Shown one piece after another: positions 6,011 to 61,836 of a stretch of DNA of 64,000 bases (the first letter of the stretch is position 1; every line of letters starts with the position of its first letter). Made by a program: the position numbers and the translations under genes. Below the pieces are notes generated by a model. It was not told where the DNA came from, did not search any database, and saw nothing but the letters and a program-made list of their open reading frames with translations. The stretch is taken from the NCBI RefSeq assembly GCF_900103265.1, contig NZ_FMWX01000001.1:811753-875752 (forward strand), given 5' to 3'. The DNA comes from Sphingomonas sp. NFR15. GTDB taxonomy: Bacteria > Pseudomonadota > Alphaproteobacteria > Sphingomonadales > Sphingomonadaceae.

Positions 6011-6034
6011 GCCTCGACCACGACCAACCCCTCC

Positions 6035-6104
6035 CCGTTCGTGTCGAGCGTAGTCGAGACACCTGCGCTTGGTGCCATCCCTCGACTTCGCTCGGGACGA
6101 ACGG
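6035..6104. repeat. Dispersed GTCGAG/CTCGAC palindromic repeat
   Basis: Copy of the family with the left arm CCGTTCGTGTCGAGCG and the right arm CCTCGACTTCGCTCGG then GACGAACGG, about 70 nt overall, between rnhA and purL. The arms could pair as a long hairpin. Confidence 0.8.
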
Positions 6105-10140: not shown

Positions 10141-10164
10141 AGCCAAGTCCCATCTGCTCGCTAG

Positions 10165-10232
10165 CCGTTCGCGCCGGGCGAGGTCGAGGCGCCTGCGCTG
10201 GGCAGCCCCTCGGCTTCGGTCGGGACGAACGG
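10165..10232. repeat. Degenerate dispersed palindromic repeat
   Basis: Diverged copy of the GTCGAG/CTCGAC family (CCGTTCGCGCCGGGCGAGG ... CCTCGGCTTCGGTCGGGAC) between the DUF1467 gene and the RNase J stop. Confidence 0.65.
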
Positions 10233-29946: not shown

Positions 29947-30050
29947 CTCCTCCCCTCCCGCTTGGCGGGAGGGGTCGGGGGAGGGCCAGTCAACACACGC
30001 GAAGCTGGAGACACGCCCTCCCCTAGCCCCTCCCGCAAGCGGGAAGGGGA
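29947..30050. repeat. GC-rich paired palindromic repeat
   Basis: Second copy of the element at 553-660: CCCCTCCCGC-TTGG-CGGGAGGGG facing CCCCTCCCGCAAGCGGGAAGG across about 50 nt. It fills the space between efp and suhB on the same strand. Confidence 0.75.
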
Positions 30051-49823: not shown

Positions 49824-49852
49824 TCGGGCGGGGCGCGGCGGCATCCCCTGTC

Positions 49853-49922
49853 CCATTCGTGTCGAGCACAATCGAGATGGCCGCGCTCCGGTCGGCCCCT
49901 CGACTGCGCTCGGGGCGAACGG
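49853..49922. repeat. Dispersed palindromic repeat
   Basis: Copy of the GTCGAG/CTCGAC family: CCATTCGTGTCGAGCAC ... CCTCGACTGCGCTCGGGGCG, then AACGG. Lies between the convergent tesB and cysQ-like genes, where it could serve as a two-way terminator. Confidence 0.75.
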
Positions 49923-50023
49923 TTGGGAGTGTGAGCGCGCCCCCGCCCCACCCGTTCACGCCGGGCGCGGGTGCTCCGGTCGTCGCGCTCGCGCGCGGGG
50001 TAGAGACGCGCGCGGGGTAGAGA

Positions 50024-52173: not shown

Positions 52174-53091
52174 TCAAAGTGTCGCGACGGTTCCGACGAC
52201 GAAACACGCGCAGAACACGAGAAATCCAGCGAAGCGGTTGGCGCGGAACCGCGCGAGCGCGCCGGCGCCGTCATCAGGCGAGAGCGTGCCGACCTGCCAG
52301 CCGAAATGCGCGGCGACCGGCAGCAAAGCGGCGAGCGCGAGCGGATCGGGGCGGACCAGCCACAGCGCCGCGCCCCACAGCAGCAGCGCCCCCGCGTAGA
52401 ACAGACCGACGCCGAGCCGCACGCGCCGGCCCATCCGCAGCGCCGAGGAGCGCACGCCGATCAGCGCATCATCCTCGCGGTCTTGCAACGCGTAGATCGT
52501 GTCATAGCCGATCACCCAGGCGATCGATCCGGCGTAGAGCAGCAGGCCGGGAACGGTCAGTCTGCCCGCGATCTCGCTCCAGCCGACGAGGCACGCCCAG
52601 GAGAACACCATGCCGAGCCATGCCTGCGGCCACCAGGTGATCCGCTTCATGAACGGATAGCCGGCCACCAAAGCGAGGCTGAGCAGCGCGACGATCGCGG
52701 CATAGAGGTTCAACTGGAACAGGACGACGAGGCCGATCAGGCAAAGGGCGACCAGCCAGACCCACGCCGCCTTGAGGCTGACCGCGCCGCTCGCGAGCGG
52801 GCGGCTGCGCGTGCGCGCGACCTTCCGGTCGAGATCGCGATCGACGATGTCGTTATAGACGCAGCCCGCTCCGCGCATCGCGATGCTGCCGAGGAGCAGC
52901 CACAGGATCAGATCCCAGTGCGCGATCGCGCCGCCGGCGAGCGCGACGCCCCAGGCGCCGGGCCAGAACAGCAGCCACCAGCCGATCGGCCGATCGAACC
53001 GCGCGAGCAACGCGAACGGGCGCGCGGCGGCGGGGAGCAGCGCGACCAGGCCGCGGTGTTCGGTGTCAGGGGTGAGATCGGTGGCGGTCAT
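52174..53091 (-). CDS. ubiA: 4-hydroxybenzoate polyprenyltransferase
   Basis: 305-aa integral membrane prenyltransferase of ubiquinone synthesis, with about eight helices. The two aspartate motifs are NDIVDRDLDRKVARTRSRPL and YDTIYALQDREDD. ATG 53091 (MTATDLTPDTEHRGL) is used; the frame to 53160 enters a repeat region. The product feeds the quinone pool that complex I, encoded elsewhere in the window, reduces. Confidence 0.95.
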   Translation of the reverse strand: MTATDLTPDTEHRGLVALLPAAARPFALLARFDRPIGWWLLFWPGAWGVALAGGAIAHWDLILWLLLGSIAMRGAGCVYNDIVDRDLDRKVARTRSRPLASGAVSLKAAWVWLVALCLIGLVVLFQLNLYAAIVALLSLALVAGYPFMKRITWWPQAWLGMVFSWACLVGWSEIAGRLTVPGLLLYAGSIAWVIGYDTIYALQDREDDALIGVRSSALRMGRRVRLGVGLFYAGALLLWGAALWLVRPDPLALAALLPVAAHFGWQVGTLSPDDGAGALARFRANRFAGFLVFCACFVVGTVATL

Positions 53092-53113
53092 GCGTCCCGC
53101 ACGCCCCTTCCTT

Positions 53114-53277
53114 CTCCCCTCCCTGGAAGGGAGGGGTCGGGGGTGGGTCGGTTGCGGCACGCGTCACGCTCCCATGCCAGCAACCCACCCCCAGTTTCGG
53201 GTGAACAGTGCCCCGCACTGTTCAGGTCATGCCGGGGGCATGACCGACCCGAAACTCCTCCCTTCCAGGGAGGGGAG
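53114..53277. repeat. Nested multi-stem palindromic element
   Basis: Outer perfect 21-bp arms (53114-53134 and 53257-53277, CTCCCCTCCCTGG... type) enclose a hairpin with arms GGGGGTGGGT/ACCCACCCCC (53139-53192), then a stem AGTTTCGGGT/ACCCGAAACT (53193-53202, 53247-53256) that itself carries two 8-bp hairpins (GAACAGTG-CCCCG-CACTGTTC and GTCATGCC-GGG-GGCATGAC). Nearly every base is paired. No gene lies inside. Confidence 0.85.
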
Positions 53278-53305: not shown

Positions 53306-55087
53306 TCACGCCGCCTCGCTGAATTGCAGGCTCGCCAGCCGCGCGTACAGGCCGCCGGCGCCGATCAGCTCGGCGTGGCTGCCGCTTTCGACGATGCGGC
53401 CTTCGTTCATCACGATGATCCGCCGCGCCGCGCGCACGGTGGCGAGGCGGTGCGCGATGACGAGCGTGGTGCGGTTGGCCATCAGCCGTTCGAGCGCCTG
53501 CTGGACGAGGCGTTCGCTCTCGGCGTCGAGCGCGCTGGTCGCCTCGTCGAGCAGCAGGATCGGGGCATCGCGCAGCAGCGCGCGCGCGATCGCGAGGCGC
53601 TGGCGCTGCCCACCCGACAGCCGCGCCCCGCCCTCGCCCAGGAACGTATCGAGCCCGTCGGGCAGCTTGCGGAGGAATTCGGCGGCGTTGGCGGCCTCGG
53701 CGGCGGCCCAGACCTGCGCGTCGCTGGCGTCCCAGCGGCCATAGCGGAGATTGTCGCGCGCCGACGCGCCGAAAATCACCGTATCCTGCGGCACCATCGC
53801 GATCCGTTCCCGGACCTTGGCCGGATCGGCGGCGGGCAGCGCGACGCCGTCGATCCGCACCTCGCCGCCGTCGGGATCGTAGAAACGCTGGAGCAATTGG
53901 AACAATGTCGATTTGCCTGCGCCCGACGGACCGACGATCGCGACCGTCTCGCCCGGCGCGACGCTCAGCGTGAAATCGTGCAGCGCCGCCACGTCGCGGC
54001 GGGTGGGATAGCGGAATTCGACGTGCGAGAATTCGACCGTGCCGCGCGCCGGCTCGGGCAACGCGAGCGGCGCGGGCGGCGCGGCGATCGTCGGCCGCTC
54101 GGCGAGCAGTTCGGAGAGGCGCCCGGCGGCACCCGACGCGCGGAGCAGATCGCCATAGACCTCGGTGAGCGACCCGAACGAGCCGGTGACGATCCCCGCC
54201 GTCAGCACGAAGGCGGCGAGCGACCCGCTCGACAGCCGCCCGCTCGCGACATCGTTGACCGTGTCCCACATCAGCAGCGTCACCGCGCCGAACAGCAGGC
54301 CCATCACCAGCGCGGTCATGATCGCGCGCAGCCGGAAGCGGCGCTTGGCCGACTGGAAGCTCTGGTCGACGGCGGTGCGGAAGCGCTCGCCCTCGCGGCG
54401 CTCCTGCCCGAACGCCTGGACGATCTTCATCGCGCCGAGCGTCTCGACCGCGAGCGCGCCGATATCGGCGACACGGTCCTGGCTGGAGCGCGAATATTGC
54501 CGCACGCGCCGGCCGAGCAGGAAGATCGGCGTGATGATGATCGGGATGCCGACGATCAGCGACAGCGCGAGCTTGGGCGCGAGCGCGAAAAGATAGACGA
54601 TGCCACCGATGCCGATGACGAGGCTGCGCAGCGCGACCGAGATCGTGCTGCCGACCGCATTCTCGATCTGCGCGGTGTCCGAGGTGAGCCGCGACGCTAT
54701 CTCCGACGGGCGATTCTCCTCGAACCACGCGGGCGACAGCGTCAGCAGGTTGTGATGGACGGCGGTGCGGATGTCCGCGACCGTCCGCTCGCCGAGCCAA
54801 GAGACACTGTAGAAGCGCACCGCCGTCGCGACCGCGAGCACCAGCACGACGATGATGAGGTGGTGGAAATAGGGCGCGACCGCCGCCGCATCGGCGTGTT
54901 CGGCGAAGCCGTTGTCGACGATCTGCTTGAAGGTCGCCGGGAACGCCAACGTCGCCCCCGCCGCCACCACGAGCGCGACCAGCGCGGTCGCGATCCGGCC
55001 GGGGTAGCGCGTGGCATGACGCCACACCATGCCGAGATTGCTCAACTTGCGCGATCCGCGCGGCTCGGCGTTGTCGACTTCAGCCAT
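53306..55087 (-). CDS. ABC transporter, fused permease and ATPase (MsbA-like exporter)
   Basis: 593-aa half-transporter: six-helix membrane domain (about 35-310) and ATP-binding domain (350-590). Walker A GPSGAGKS (386-393), signature LSGGQRQR (490-497), Walker B ILLLDEATSALD. Works as a homodimer in the inner membrane, exporting lipid or other hydrophobic substrates; the exact substrate is unknown. Upstream (downstream in genome coordinates) lies phaZ, divergent. Confidence 0.92.
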   Translation of the reverse strand: MAEVDNAEPRGSRKLSNLGMVWRHATRYPGRIATALVALVVAAGATLAFPATFKQIVDNGFAEHADAAAVAPYFHHLIIVVLVLAVATAVRFYSVSWLGERTVADIRTAVHHNLLTLSPAWFEENRPSEIASRLTSDTAQIENAVGSTISVALRSLVIGIGGIVYLFALAPKLALSLIVGIPIIITPIFLLGRRVRQYSRSSQDRVADIGALAVETLGAMKIVQAFGQERREGERFRTAVDQSFQSAKRRFRLRAIMTALVMGLLFGAVTLLMWDTVNDVASGRLSSGSLAAFVLTAGIVTGSFGSLTEVYGDLLRASGAAGRLSELLAERPTIAAPPAPLALPEPARGTVEFSHVEFRYPTRRDVAALHDFTLSVAPGETVAIVGPSGAGKSTLFQLLQRFYDPDGGEVRIDGVALPAADPAKVRERIAMVPQDTVIFGASARDNLRYGRWDASDAQVWAAAEAANAAEFLRKLPDGLDTFLGEGGARLSGGQRQRLAIARALLRDAPILLLDEATSALDAESERLVQQALERLMANRTTLVIAHRLATVRAARRIIVMNEGRIVESGSHAELIGAGGLYARLASLQFSEAA

Positions 55088-60024: not shown

Positions 60025-60043
60025 GCGGCACACGCAGTTCTGA

Positions 60044-60468
60044 GCCGCTCGGGTCGAGCGCGGTCGTGACACCGCGCACGGCACGCGGGGCATATCCCTC
60101 GACTTCGCTCGGGACGAGCGGAGGTTTGCGTTAGCCTGGTCCGGGGCAGAGCGTCCGTTTGCTCCTGCGGAACAGTTGCCGCCTCGCTTGCACACGGCGA
60201 TGGCGGCAGCGCGATATCCAAACCGTTCGTGTCGAGCGTAGTCGAGACACCACAAGGCACGCGGGGCCTCCCTCGACTTCGCTCGGGACGAACGGAGGTT
60301 TGCGTTAGCCTGGTCCGGGGGCAGAGCCTCCGTTTGCTCCTGCGGAACAGTTGCCGCCTCGCTTGCACACGGCTGGCGGCAGCGCGCGATCCAAACCGTT
60401 CGTGTCGAGCGAAGTCGAGACACCACACGCCACGCGGGGCCTCCCTCGGCTTCGCTCGGGACGGGCGG
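60044..60468. repeat. Tandem 174-bp repeat built on the dispersed palindrome
   Basis: A 174-bp unit (60121-60294, again 60295-60468) begins GAGGTTTGCGTTAGCCTGG and ends in a GTCGAG/CTCGAC palindrome; a partial preceding copy (60044-60120) has only the palindrome. The two full units differ at scattered positions and by single-base indels. No gene in the 447 nt between the PfpI and ligase genes. Confidence 0.85.
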
Positions 60469-60471
60469 ATA

Positions 60472-61836
60472 TTATGTGAGCGCAGCGTCGGACAGCGGCT
60501 GTTTCGCCTTGCGGAACGGGCGCCATGCCGCCTCCGAGCGTTTGCGCGCGAGATAGGTGTCCAGCCCGATCTGCGCGCCGATCAACTGGTAGATGAACGG
60601 CTGGAACGCGATGCCGACGAACGACGCGCCGAGCAGGTAGATCAGCAGCGCCGATTGCAGCGCGCCGGCCAGTGGCGCGATCCATTGCTCCTCGGGCGGC
60701 GCCTTGCGGTAGCGGCGGCGCAGCATCTCCATGCGGATAATGCCGATGATGTTGAGCCCGCCCCACAGGATGATGCCGGGCCAGCCCTGCTCGCCGAGCA
60801 TCTCGAAATAGGAGCTGTGATAGGCGCGCGCGCGGTCGGTGGTCGGGGTGTGTTTGATCGTCAGGCTGTTGCCGCTGCCCTCGGTGGTGACGAGATCATA
60901 GTTGAGCACGTCCTGCCGGTACATGTCGAAGCCGCCGCCGAACGGATGCGTCTTCGCGTAATTCCACGTCCATTGCCAAACGGCGAGCCGGGTCGAGGCG
61001 GATTCGTCGGCCTTGTAGGTCTTGATCGTTCCCATCCGCGCGACGAAGGCGGAGGGCAGGAACGGCACCGCGACCAGCCCGATCGCGGCGATCAGCCCGA
61101 GGTAGAGCATCTTGCGCTTCACGTCGCGCAGCATCAGCACCGCCGCCAGCACGACGCACAGCAGCCCGGTGCGCGCCGAGGTGCCGACCGGGATCATGCA
61201 GCATGCGAATACCAACGCGTAGCAGAACAGCTTCACCTTCCAGTCGGGCGGGAACACCGTGCCGTGGTTGGAGAACCACAGCACCAGCGGCACGATCGCC
61301 ACCGCCACGGTCGAGATGATCGAGCCTTCGTACAGACCGCTGTTGTTGGACACCATCAGGTTGAGCGAGCCGTACCCGCCGCCCGACACCACCGTCTTGA
61401 TGCCGCCGACGATGATGATCGACGAGGCGGAAAGCACCATGAACAGCAGCAGCGATTCGATCCTGAGCCTGGTGCGCAGCGTCAGCGGCAGGAAGGCGGC
61501 GAACACCAGCGCCTTCCACACCCAATCCCATTTATCGAGTGCTTCCAGCGGGAAGTCGGCGTTGCGCGTGGTGATTCCGCAATAGAGCAGCAGCAACAGG
61601 ATGATGATCTGGCGCGGCGCGATCCGCACGTCGCGCTTGTCGTCGATCAGCGCCCAGCTCAGCACCGCCGCGCAGAAGGCGATCAGCGAGATCGGCATCG
61701 CATTGAGCAGCAGATAGGTCAGCCGCTGCGGGCTGACGATGTCGATATAGATATAGGCGAGGATGAAGATGAACGGCTTGCGCAGGCCCGCCAGGAAGAA
61801 GGCGCCGAGGAACGCGACGAAGACGAGGTCACGCAC
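60472..61836 (-). CDS. Exosortase-A-associated O-glycosylation/O-antigen-ligase-like protein
   Basis: 454-aa Wzy/WaaL-type protein with about 11 membrane helices. RDLVFVAFLGAFFLAGLRKPF and DIVSPQRLTYLLLNAMP resemble the N-terminus of exosortase-A-associated ligases; the large periplasmic loop has RARAYHSSYFEMLGEQGW. GTG 61836 is chosen because it matches that family start and because the stop of an upstream 55-aa ORF overlaps it; the longer frame from 61869 is possible. Likely polymerises or transfers polysaccharide in the periplasm. Confidence 0.85.
   Translation of the reverse strand: MRDLVFVAFLGAFFLAGLRKPFIFILAYIYIDIVSPQRLTYLLLNAMPISLIAFCAAVLSWALIDDKRDVRIAPRQIIILLLLLYCGITTRNADFPLEALDKWDWVWKALVFAAFLPLTLRTRLRIESLLLFMVLSASSIIIVGGIKTVVSGGGYGSLNLMVSNNSGLYEGSIISTVAVAIVPLVLWFSNHGTVFPPDWKVKLFCYALVFACCMIPVGTSARTGLLCVVLAAVLMLRDVKRKMLYLGLIAAIGLVAVPFLPSAFVARMGTIKTYKADESASTRLAVWQWTWNYAKTHPFGGGFDMYRQDVLNYDLVTTEGSGNSLTIKHTPTTDRARAYHSSYFEMLGEQGWPGIILWGGLNIIGIIRMEMLRRRYRKAPPEEQWIAPLAGALQSALLIYLLGASFVGIAFQPFIYQLIGAQIGLDTYLARKRSEAAWRPFRKAKQPLSDAALT

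Follow-up and report, generated by a model that had tools for sequence, protein, structure and literature searches.

The 164-bp palindrome found at positions 53114-53277 of the analyzed window (a stretch of 64,000 nucleotides from Sphingomonas sp. NFR15) is quite probably a repeated host palindrome that was invaded by a 64-bp non-autonomous mobile DNA element, here designated Y, whose folded strand would be recognized by an enzyme acting in trans. As judged from the comparison of filled and empty sites among genomes, Y appears to be mobile; its ends are fixed, its many copies occur in both orientations and at precise insertion sites, and its three-way fold is maintained by compensatory changes. 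It is apparently a palindromic mobile element devoid of genes, which is recognized by shape and leaves an unusual insertion signature.

Bacteria commonly contain short palindromic repeats, but a known means of moving is largely confined to the REP/RAYT system. The Y family combines sharply defined ends with numerous copies, clear empty sites, and a shape kept at the DNA level, and it renders testable the question of what moves gene-less palindromes. Y suggests recognition by shape, and its signature of 64 bases in and four out is a constraint for any proposed enzyme.

The composite palindrome and its locus

It was verified by folding and shuffle tests that positions 53114-53277 form a single nested structure, composed of the host palindrome and Y (features below are given on the plus strand). 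The coordinates and the perfect 21-bp outer stem of the original prediction were exact, with the left outer arm (53114-53134) pairing throughout with the right one (53257-53277). The left part of the host palindrome, up to the insertion, comprises positions 53114-53192 and belongs to the family CTCCCCTCCCTGGAAGGGAGGGGTCGGGGGTGGGT...ACCCACCCCC, known from uninterrupted copies elsewhere in the genome. Within it, four host bases, GGTC (53135-53138), are left unpaired opposite Y, their partners GACC having been replaced by the element, as indicated by partner-arm comparison and by the empty ortholog in genome G066. They are followed by the host inner stem, in which the left arm GGGGGTGGGT (53139-53148) forms 10 pairs with the right arm ACCCACCCCC (53183-53192), and by a host middle of 34 nt (53149-53182) in which pairing is weak. 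Y itself occupies positions 53193-53256 (covariance-model match of 94.4 bits, E 6.8e-19), and the right outer arm past the insertion corresponds to the remainder of the host palindrome, on the basis of pairing and of the G066 comparison.

Y consists of a left arm (53193-53202) forming 10 pairs with a right arm (53247-53256), the outer 6 nt of the left arm, AGTTTC, being of the freely varying kind, and of two hairpins enclosed by these arms. Hairpin A (53203-53223) has 9 bp and the loop CCC at 53212-53214, and hairpin B (53225-53245) has 9 bp and the loop GGG at 53234-53236. Between them lies the junction base A (53224), invariant or nearly so, and hairpin B is followed by the nearly invariant junction base G (53246). 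Folding recovered both the 10-bp host stem and the 10-bp stem carrying two hairpins that had been described before, and corrected the length of the inner hairpins, reported as 8 bp, to 9 pairs each. The strong nesting was also borne out, whereas the accompanying remark that hardly any bases are unpaired was slightly generous, given the weakly paired host middle. In comparison with shuffled sequences, the 164-nt fold reached z values of -8.95 and -11.3 as RNA (one value per strand) and -12.1 as DNA, and Y alone reached -7.5 as DNA; none of 200 shuffled sequences was equally stable.

The host palindrome is a sequence of about 105 nt of the form CTCCCC...GGGGAG, of which the window genome has a dozen copies or more. 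When the genome was searched with the 164 nt, at least a dozen partial copies were obtained that matched the outer part only. These other host copies are uninterrupted, comprising CTCCCCTCCCTGGAAGGGAGGGGTCGGGGGTGGGT, 35-45 variable bases, and a complementary arm ending in CCCCTCCCTTCCAGGGAGGGGAG, and the window copy is the same palindrome with 64 extra bases (53193-53256) replacing four. Outer arms and three-way unit thus belong to separate families, each with its own genomic copies, as expected of the composite of several palindromic repeats that the original prediction had proposed as one option. Two palindromes related to the host, of the CCCCTCCCGC...GGGAGGGG type, were also observed at 555-660 and 29951-30048 of the window; they lack Y, and their hairpin loops are different. 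Moreover, a G-quadruplex pattern can be read in the G-rich strand of host arms, for instance at window 53128-53147 (GGGAGGGGTCGGGGGTGGG), and the counterpart of this motif in the opposite arm is broken by Y.

The composite is located between two minus-strand genes, a ubiA-like prenyltransferase gene that adjoins it (52174-53091) and an ABC transporter gene (53306-55087) that lies upstream of Y on that strand, both supported by ORFs and gene calls, which confirms the location given previously. The ubiA-ABC adjacency was found by DNA search of 295 genus genomes to be kept in genomes G252, G174, and G066, and a UbiA protein search of 60 relatives revealed no conserved gene order. A scan of the gap between the two genes disclosed no promoter-like or terminator-like site, and no U-tract follows the palindrome. 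Apart from the very strong hairpin that it places between ubiA and the ABC gene, Y probably has no particular role for either gene here. The longest ubiA ORF has a GTG start within the palindrome (53160; window 53092-53160), the ATG at 53091 being the likelier start, and automatic gene callers may extend proteins into palindromic repeats of this kind. In Sphingomonas sp. Leaf407, a more distant species, a Y-bearing palindrome was also found just upstream of ubiA (G087, L140, C1:446424-446487), and several copies in that genome are identical to the window Y.

Fold, ends, and distribution of element Y

The layout of Y was constant among 151 collected copies, with 6 variable bases, a 52-base core, and a terminal stretch of 6 bases that complements the initial one. 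The 6-nt arms paired in full in 107 of these copies and at five of the six positions in another 36, and the base just outside the arms paired in only 3 of 151; therefore, the ends of Y are sharp. Perfectly paired arms comprised 27 different sequences. Over 28 pairs in 114 distinct copies, 96.9% of the pairs were of the Watson-Crick type, versus 81% when the 3′ letters were shuffled. In an alignment of 36 sequences, picked for diversity, changes on both sides were found in 22 of the 28 pairs; none of 500 shuffles was as good, and slid controls were 28-39% paired. The compensatory changes that the original prediction had called for were thus abundant, and the outcome that it had named as a refutation, with neither further copies nor such changes, did not occur.

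Almost no variation was seen in the CCC and GGG loops or at the junction bases A and G. When the ten covariance-model matches of greatest divergence were compared with the window Y, differences occurred at 195 of 560 paired sites and at none of 80 unpaired ones, a large contrast even if loop conservation may be partly inflated by the way in which copies were collected (blast seeds, followed by a model built from them). It may be suggested that the CCC and GGG loops could pair with each other. In addition, G.T and A.C mismatches occurred in the stems at similar frequencies (30 and 31, respectively, in the 114 copies; 30 and 21 in the model-derived set), which suggests that the fold of Y is probably conserved, or arises, at the DNA level and not as a single RNA strand, since selection on one RNA strand would be expected to leave G.T in clear excess.

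By blast, Y was found in 126 of 201 Sphingomonas genomes, and copies were also obtained in named genomes of Sphingomonas, Sphingobium, and Allosphingosinicella. In the window genome, DNA blast returned a single copy and the covariance model four loci, namely that of the window, C20:206752, C15:147051, and C8:307571. Blast misses three of these four loci because only the shape is kept; in fact, related Y elements are more alike in folded shape than in sequence, and the covariance model offers annotators a route to copies missed by sequence search. Each of the other three loci lies inside a longer palindrome, one of them of a different kind, the GTTCGTGCTGAG type. Of the 14 genomes searched closely, 13 showed 10-30 matches each and the remaining one showed three, some sites being counted on both strands.

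In an order-level sample, model matches were obtained in 30 of 251 genomes, all of the same family and distributed over 8 genera. In a class-level sample, the matches were again in family members, except for a marginal one in a genome of another family (G607, E 6.5e-4) that was taken as chance, so that nothing convincing was detected outside the family in the order- and class-level samples searched. A phage or plasmid vehicle for Y was considered and rejected. There was no match in phages, and two matches in a viral collection corresponded to one locus with an ordinary host palindrome. The only plasmid matches were on replicons of S. parapaucimobilis YK209 that are large and contain core genes.

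Insertion sites and the loss of four bases

At seven loci with orthologous empty sites, it was observed that 64 bases had been gained and exactly four lost, in one arm of a G/C-rich palindrome. At the ubiA-ABC locus, G066 has the uninterrupted palindrome with the empty site CCCCC/GGCC/CCTCCC (here and below, slashes enclose the lost bases). The window locus lost GGCC if G066 is taken as the reference, or GACC if the partner arm is. G252 shares the window insertion, with all 64 bases of Y identical despite a divergence of about a tenth in the DNA around it. In S. populi (G174), the same host palindrome carries Y in inverted orientation, with other arms, 5 nt away.

Filled and empty sites were also compared at six further loci. 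G187 is filled at two loci that are empty in G031 (AGG/GGAG/GGGTT and, at another locus, AACCC/CTCC/CCTGAAG); S. populi is filled at a locus that is empty in G187 (AAAG/GGAG/GGG) and in the window genome (CAAG/GGAG/GGG); G139 is filled where G062 (AGG/GGAG/GGGTT) and, elsewhere, G187 (ACCC/CTCC/CCTG) are empty; and G031 is filled where G139 is empty (GGG/AGAG/GGTGGCC). Five of these six loci therefore lost GGAG or CTCC, and the remaining one lost AGAG. Orthologous sites that are precisely filled in one genome and empty in another, the general hallmark of a mobile element, were thus found for Y; together with its separate copies and compensatory changes, they lend support to the earlier suggestion of a mobile non-autonomous element.

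Comparison of Y-bearing arms with their partner arms pointed in the same direction, with a gap of 4 bases being the commonest (48 of 81 cases) and gaps of 3, 5, or more in the others, where the scatter at 3 and 5 was attributed to imperfect, C-rich host arms; strict matching of the partner arms leaves only a handful of cases. With such noisy data, it is the seven orthologous loci that provide most of the support for the 4-base rule. The palindromes hosting Y were of several unrelated sequences, the GTTCGTGCTGAG-type repeat among them.

Mobilization, rival explanations, and known systems

In the mechanism that we favor, a trans-acting enzyme would recognize Y as a folded single strand (hairpin or cruciform DNA) and would cut near a hairpin in the target. 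The cut may have a 4-base stagger, with the overhang being lost rather than filled in; four bases would then disappear, in contrast to the short duplication left by ordinary transposition. More tentatively, and with somewhat less than even confidence, Y might be the footprint of an undescribed mobilization system, in which the enzyme would identify the three-way junction from its CCC and GGG loops, which could pair with each other, and its junction bases instead of the sequence of its ends, and would insert Y into hairpins of other palindromic repeats, swapping exactly four bases without target duplication. No mobilizing gene was found for Y among the RAYT/Y1 transposases, the obvious candidate class examined.

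The main rival to insertion by an enzyme is recombination between palindromes. In this scenario, which we regard as unlikely, a single founding insertion would have been followed by ectopic homologous recombination or gene conversion among dispersed host palindromes, with template switching within hairpins keeping the arms complementary and no dedicated enzyme being involved. Y is indeed nearly always found in a palindrome, mostly at the GGAG/CTCC position, and palindrome merger and co-conversion have been described for yeast mitochondrial GC clusters (PMC4478555). Moreover, template switching can perfect arms, producing pairing without selection, and gene conversion could copy Y together with its flanks, mimicking insertion. 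However, the target positions differ (GACC at the window locus, CTCC 5 nt off in S. populi, and AGAG in another host family), and Y occurs in both orientations and in hosts of unrelated sequence. In addition, filled and empty junctions differ solely by 64 bp versus 4 bp, the local host sequence being retained, and template switching leaves the constant loops and junction bases unexplained.

It is also conceivable, at a much lower probability, that Y and its host are kept as a 3′ end signal, such as a terminator, an mRNA stabilizer, or a protein-binding site, as proposed for REPs. Among 75 copies with clear context, 42 were in tandem, 23 in convergent, and 8 in divergent intergenic regions and 2 in genes, as assigned by a home-made gene caller that was checked on the window and on six annotated plasmid copies, one of which it placed in the wrong context (L036). 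Since the available intergenic bases were 54% tandem, 15% convergent, and 31% divergent, the 73 intergenic copies under-used divergent regions and over-used convergent ones, that is, 3′ ends. This pattern is expected of a 3′ end signal, but harmful insertions in promoter regions would give the same pattern. The patchy presence of Y among close relatives, the occurrence of some copies in coding sequence (as in L040, described below), and the missing U-tract also argue against it.

Marginally less probable still is the structured RNA that the original prediction had listed, either a cis-acting or a small RNA produced from the intergenic region. The sequence folds strongly as RNA on both strands and its pairs covary; however, G-U was not clearly in excess of A-C mismatches, Y was found in either orientation and beside unrelated genes, the orthologous site is empty in G066, and the gap harbors neither promoter-like nor terminator-like sites. 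Against Rfam, there was no match at gathering score, with no family near the threshold and only weak, chance-like matches to microRNA precursors.

A REP/REPIN-type element moved by a RAYT (an IS200/IS605-like Y1 transposase) is scarcely credible in spite of the similar manner of such elements, which are short intergenic palindromes perhaps recognized as folded single strands, and of the presence of a Y1 transposase in 22 of 201 genus genomes, since that transposase (PF01797) is absent from the window genome and from about 110 genomes with Y, a Y copy was near none of the 28 Y1-transposase loci of relatives (92 kb, model search), and neither end bears a constant GTAG or CGTC tag, the terminal six bases comprising 27 sequences. 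The RAYT partner suggested originally was therefore missing from the window genome and most carriers, and the RAYT genes of relatives were not flanked by Y.

Insertion by an enzyme in trans, the reading preferred here, leaves Y without a close counterpart among known families; the nearest described systems are the mitochondrial GC clusters and double-hairpin elements (PMC4478555) and the REPs (PMC3733652). The former, found in yeast, Allomyces, and cryptophytes, are short, G/C-rich, hairpin-built, and dispersed, and are presumed mobile without a coding gene; such palindromes merge, with stand-alone and merged forms at the same orthologous site, and the GC clusters are flanked by short direct repeats (AG or ACT) reminiscent of a target duplication (PMC4478555). 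Like the double-hairpin elements, Y has two adjacent G/C-rich hairpins (9 bp), is dispersed, and varies in presence at orthologous sites. Unlike the GC clusters, it has a fixed three-way fold, closing arms, and constant CCC/GGG loops and junction bases, it loses four bases at insertion, and its host is bacterial (the Sphingomonas family), not mitochondrial. REPs and REPINs associated with RAYT are palindromes tagged with GTAG and CGTC (PMC3733652). Y resembles them as a short palindromic repeat of bacterial intergenic regions, but it has neither a constant tetranucleotide tag nor a RAYT association, forms a closed three-way junction, and targets another palindrome. Membership in REP/RAYT was rejected after a cognate RAYT, a RAYT flanked by the repeat, and a constant tetranucleotide had been looked for and none of them found.

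Similarly to prokaryotic MITEs, Y is short and non-autonomous, with terminal inverted repeats and many copies. In contrast to them, its terminal sequence is not conserved, self-complementarity alone being kept (27 arm sequences), and no target duplication occurs at its sites (seven filled/empty loci, with four bases lost). Among the copies encountered, a full-length parent transposon was not seen. The Rickettsia palindromic elements (RPEs) are also palindromic and alphaproteobacterial, and are sometimes located within genes. In S. parapaucimobilis YK209, a Y-bearing palindrome was likewise found in frame in an annotated cysteine desulfurase gene (L040 2541-3791), where the insert is rich in proline, glycine, and histidine. 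Compared with the general description of RPEs, however, the structure and targets of Y differ, and most of its copies are intergenic. A description of the Y family was not found in the openly licensed literature on Sphingomonas palindromes, MITEs, and structured repeats, and the term undescribed is therefore provisional.

Other structured repeats were observed in the window. Three near-tandem copies of a CCGTTCGTGTCGAGCG...CCCTCGACTTCGCTCGGGACGAACGG palindromic repeat, 173-178 bp apart, are located at 60040-60493, and more copies of it were found at 2606-2792, 6030-6104, 10160-10232, and 49852-49928. Finally, tandem glycine riboswitch aptamers (Rfam RF00504, both above the gathering score) are present on the minus strand at 2300-2499.
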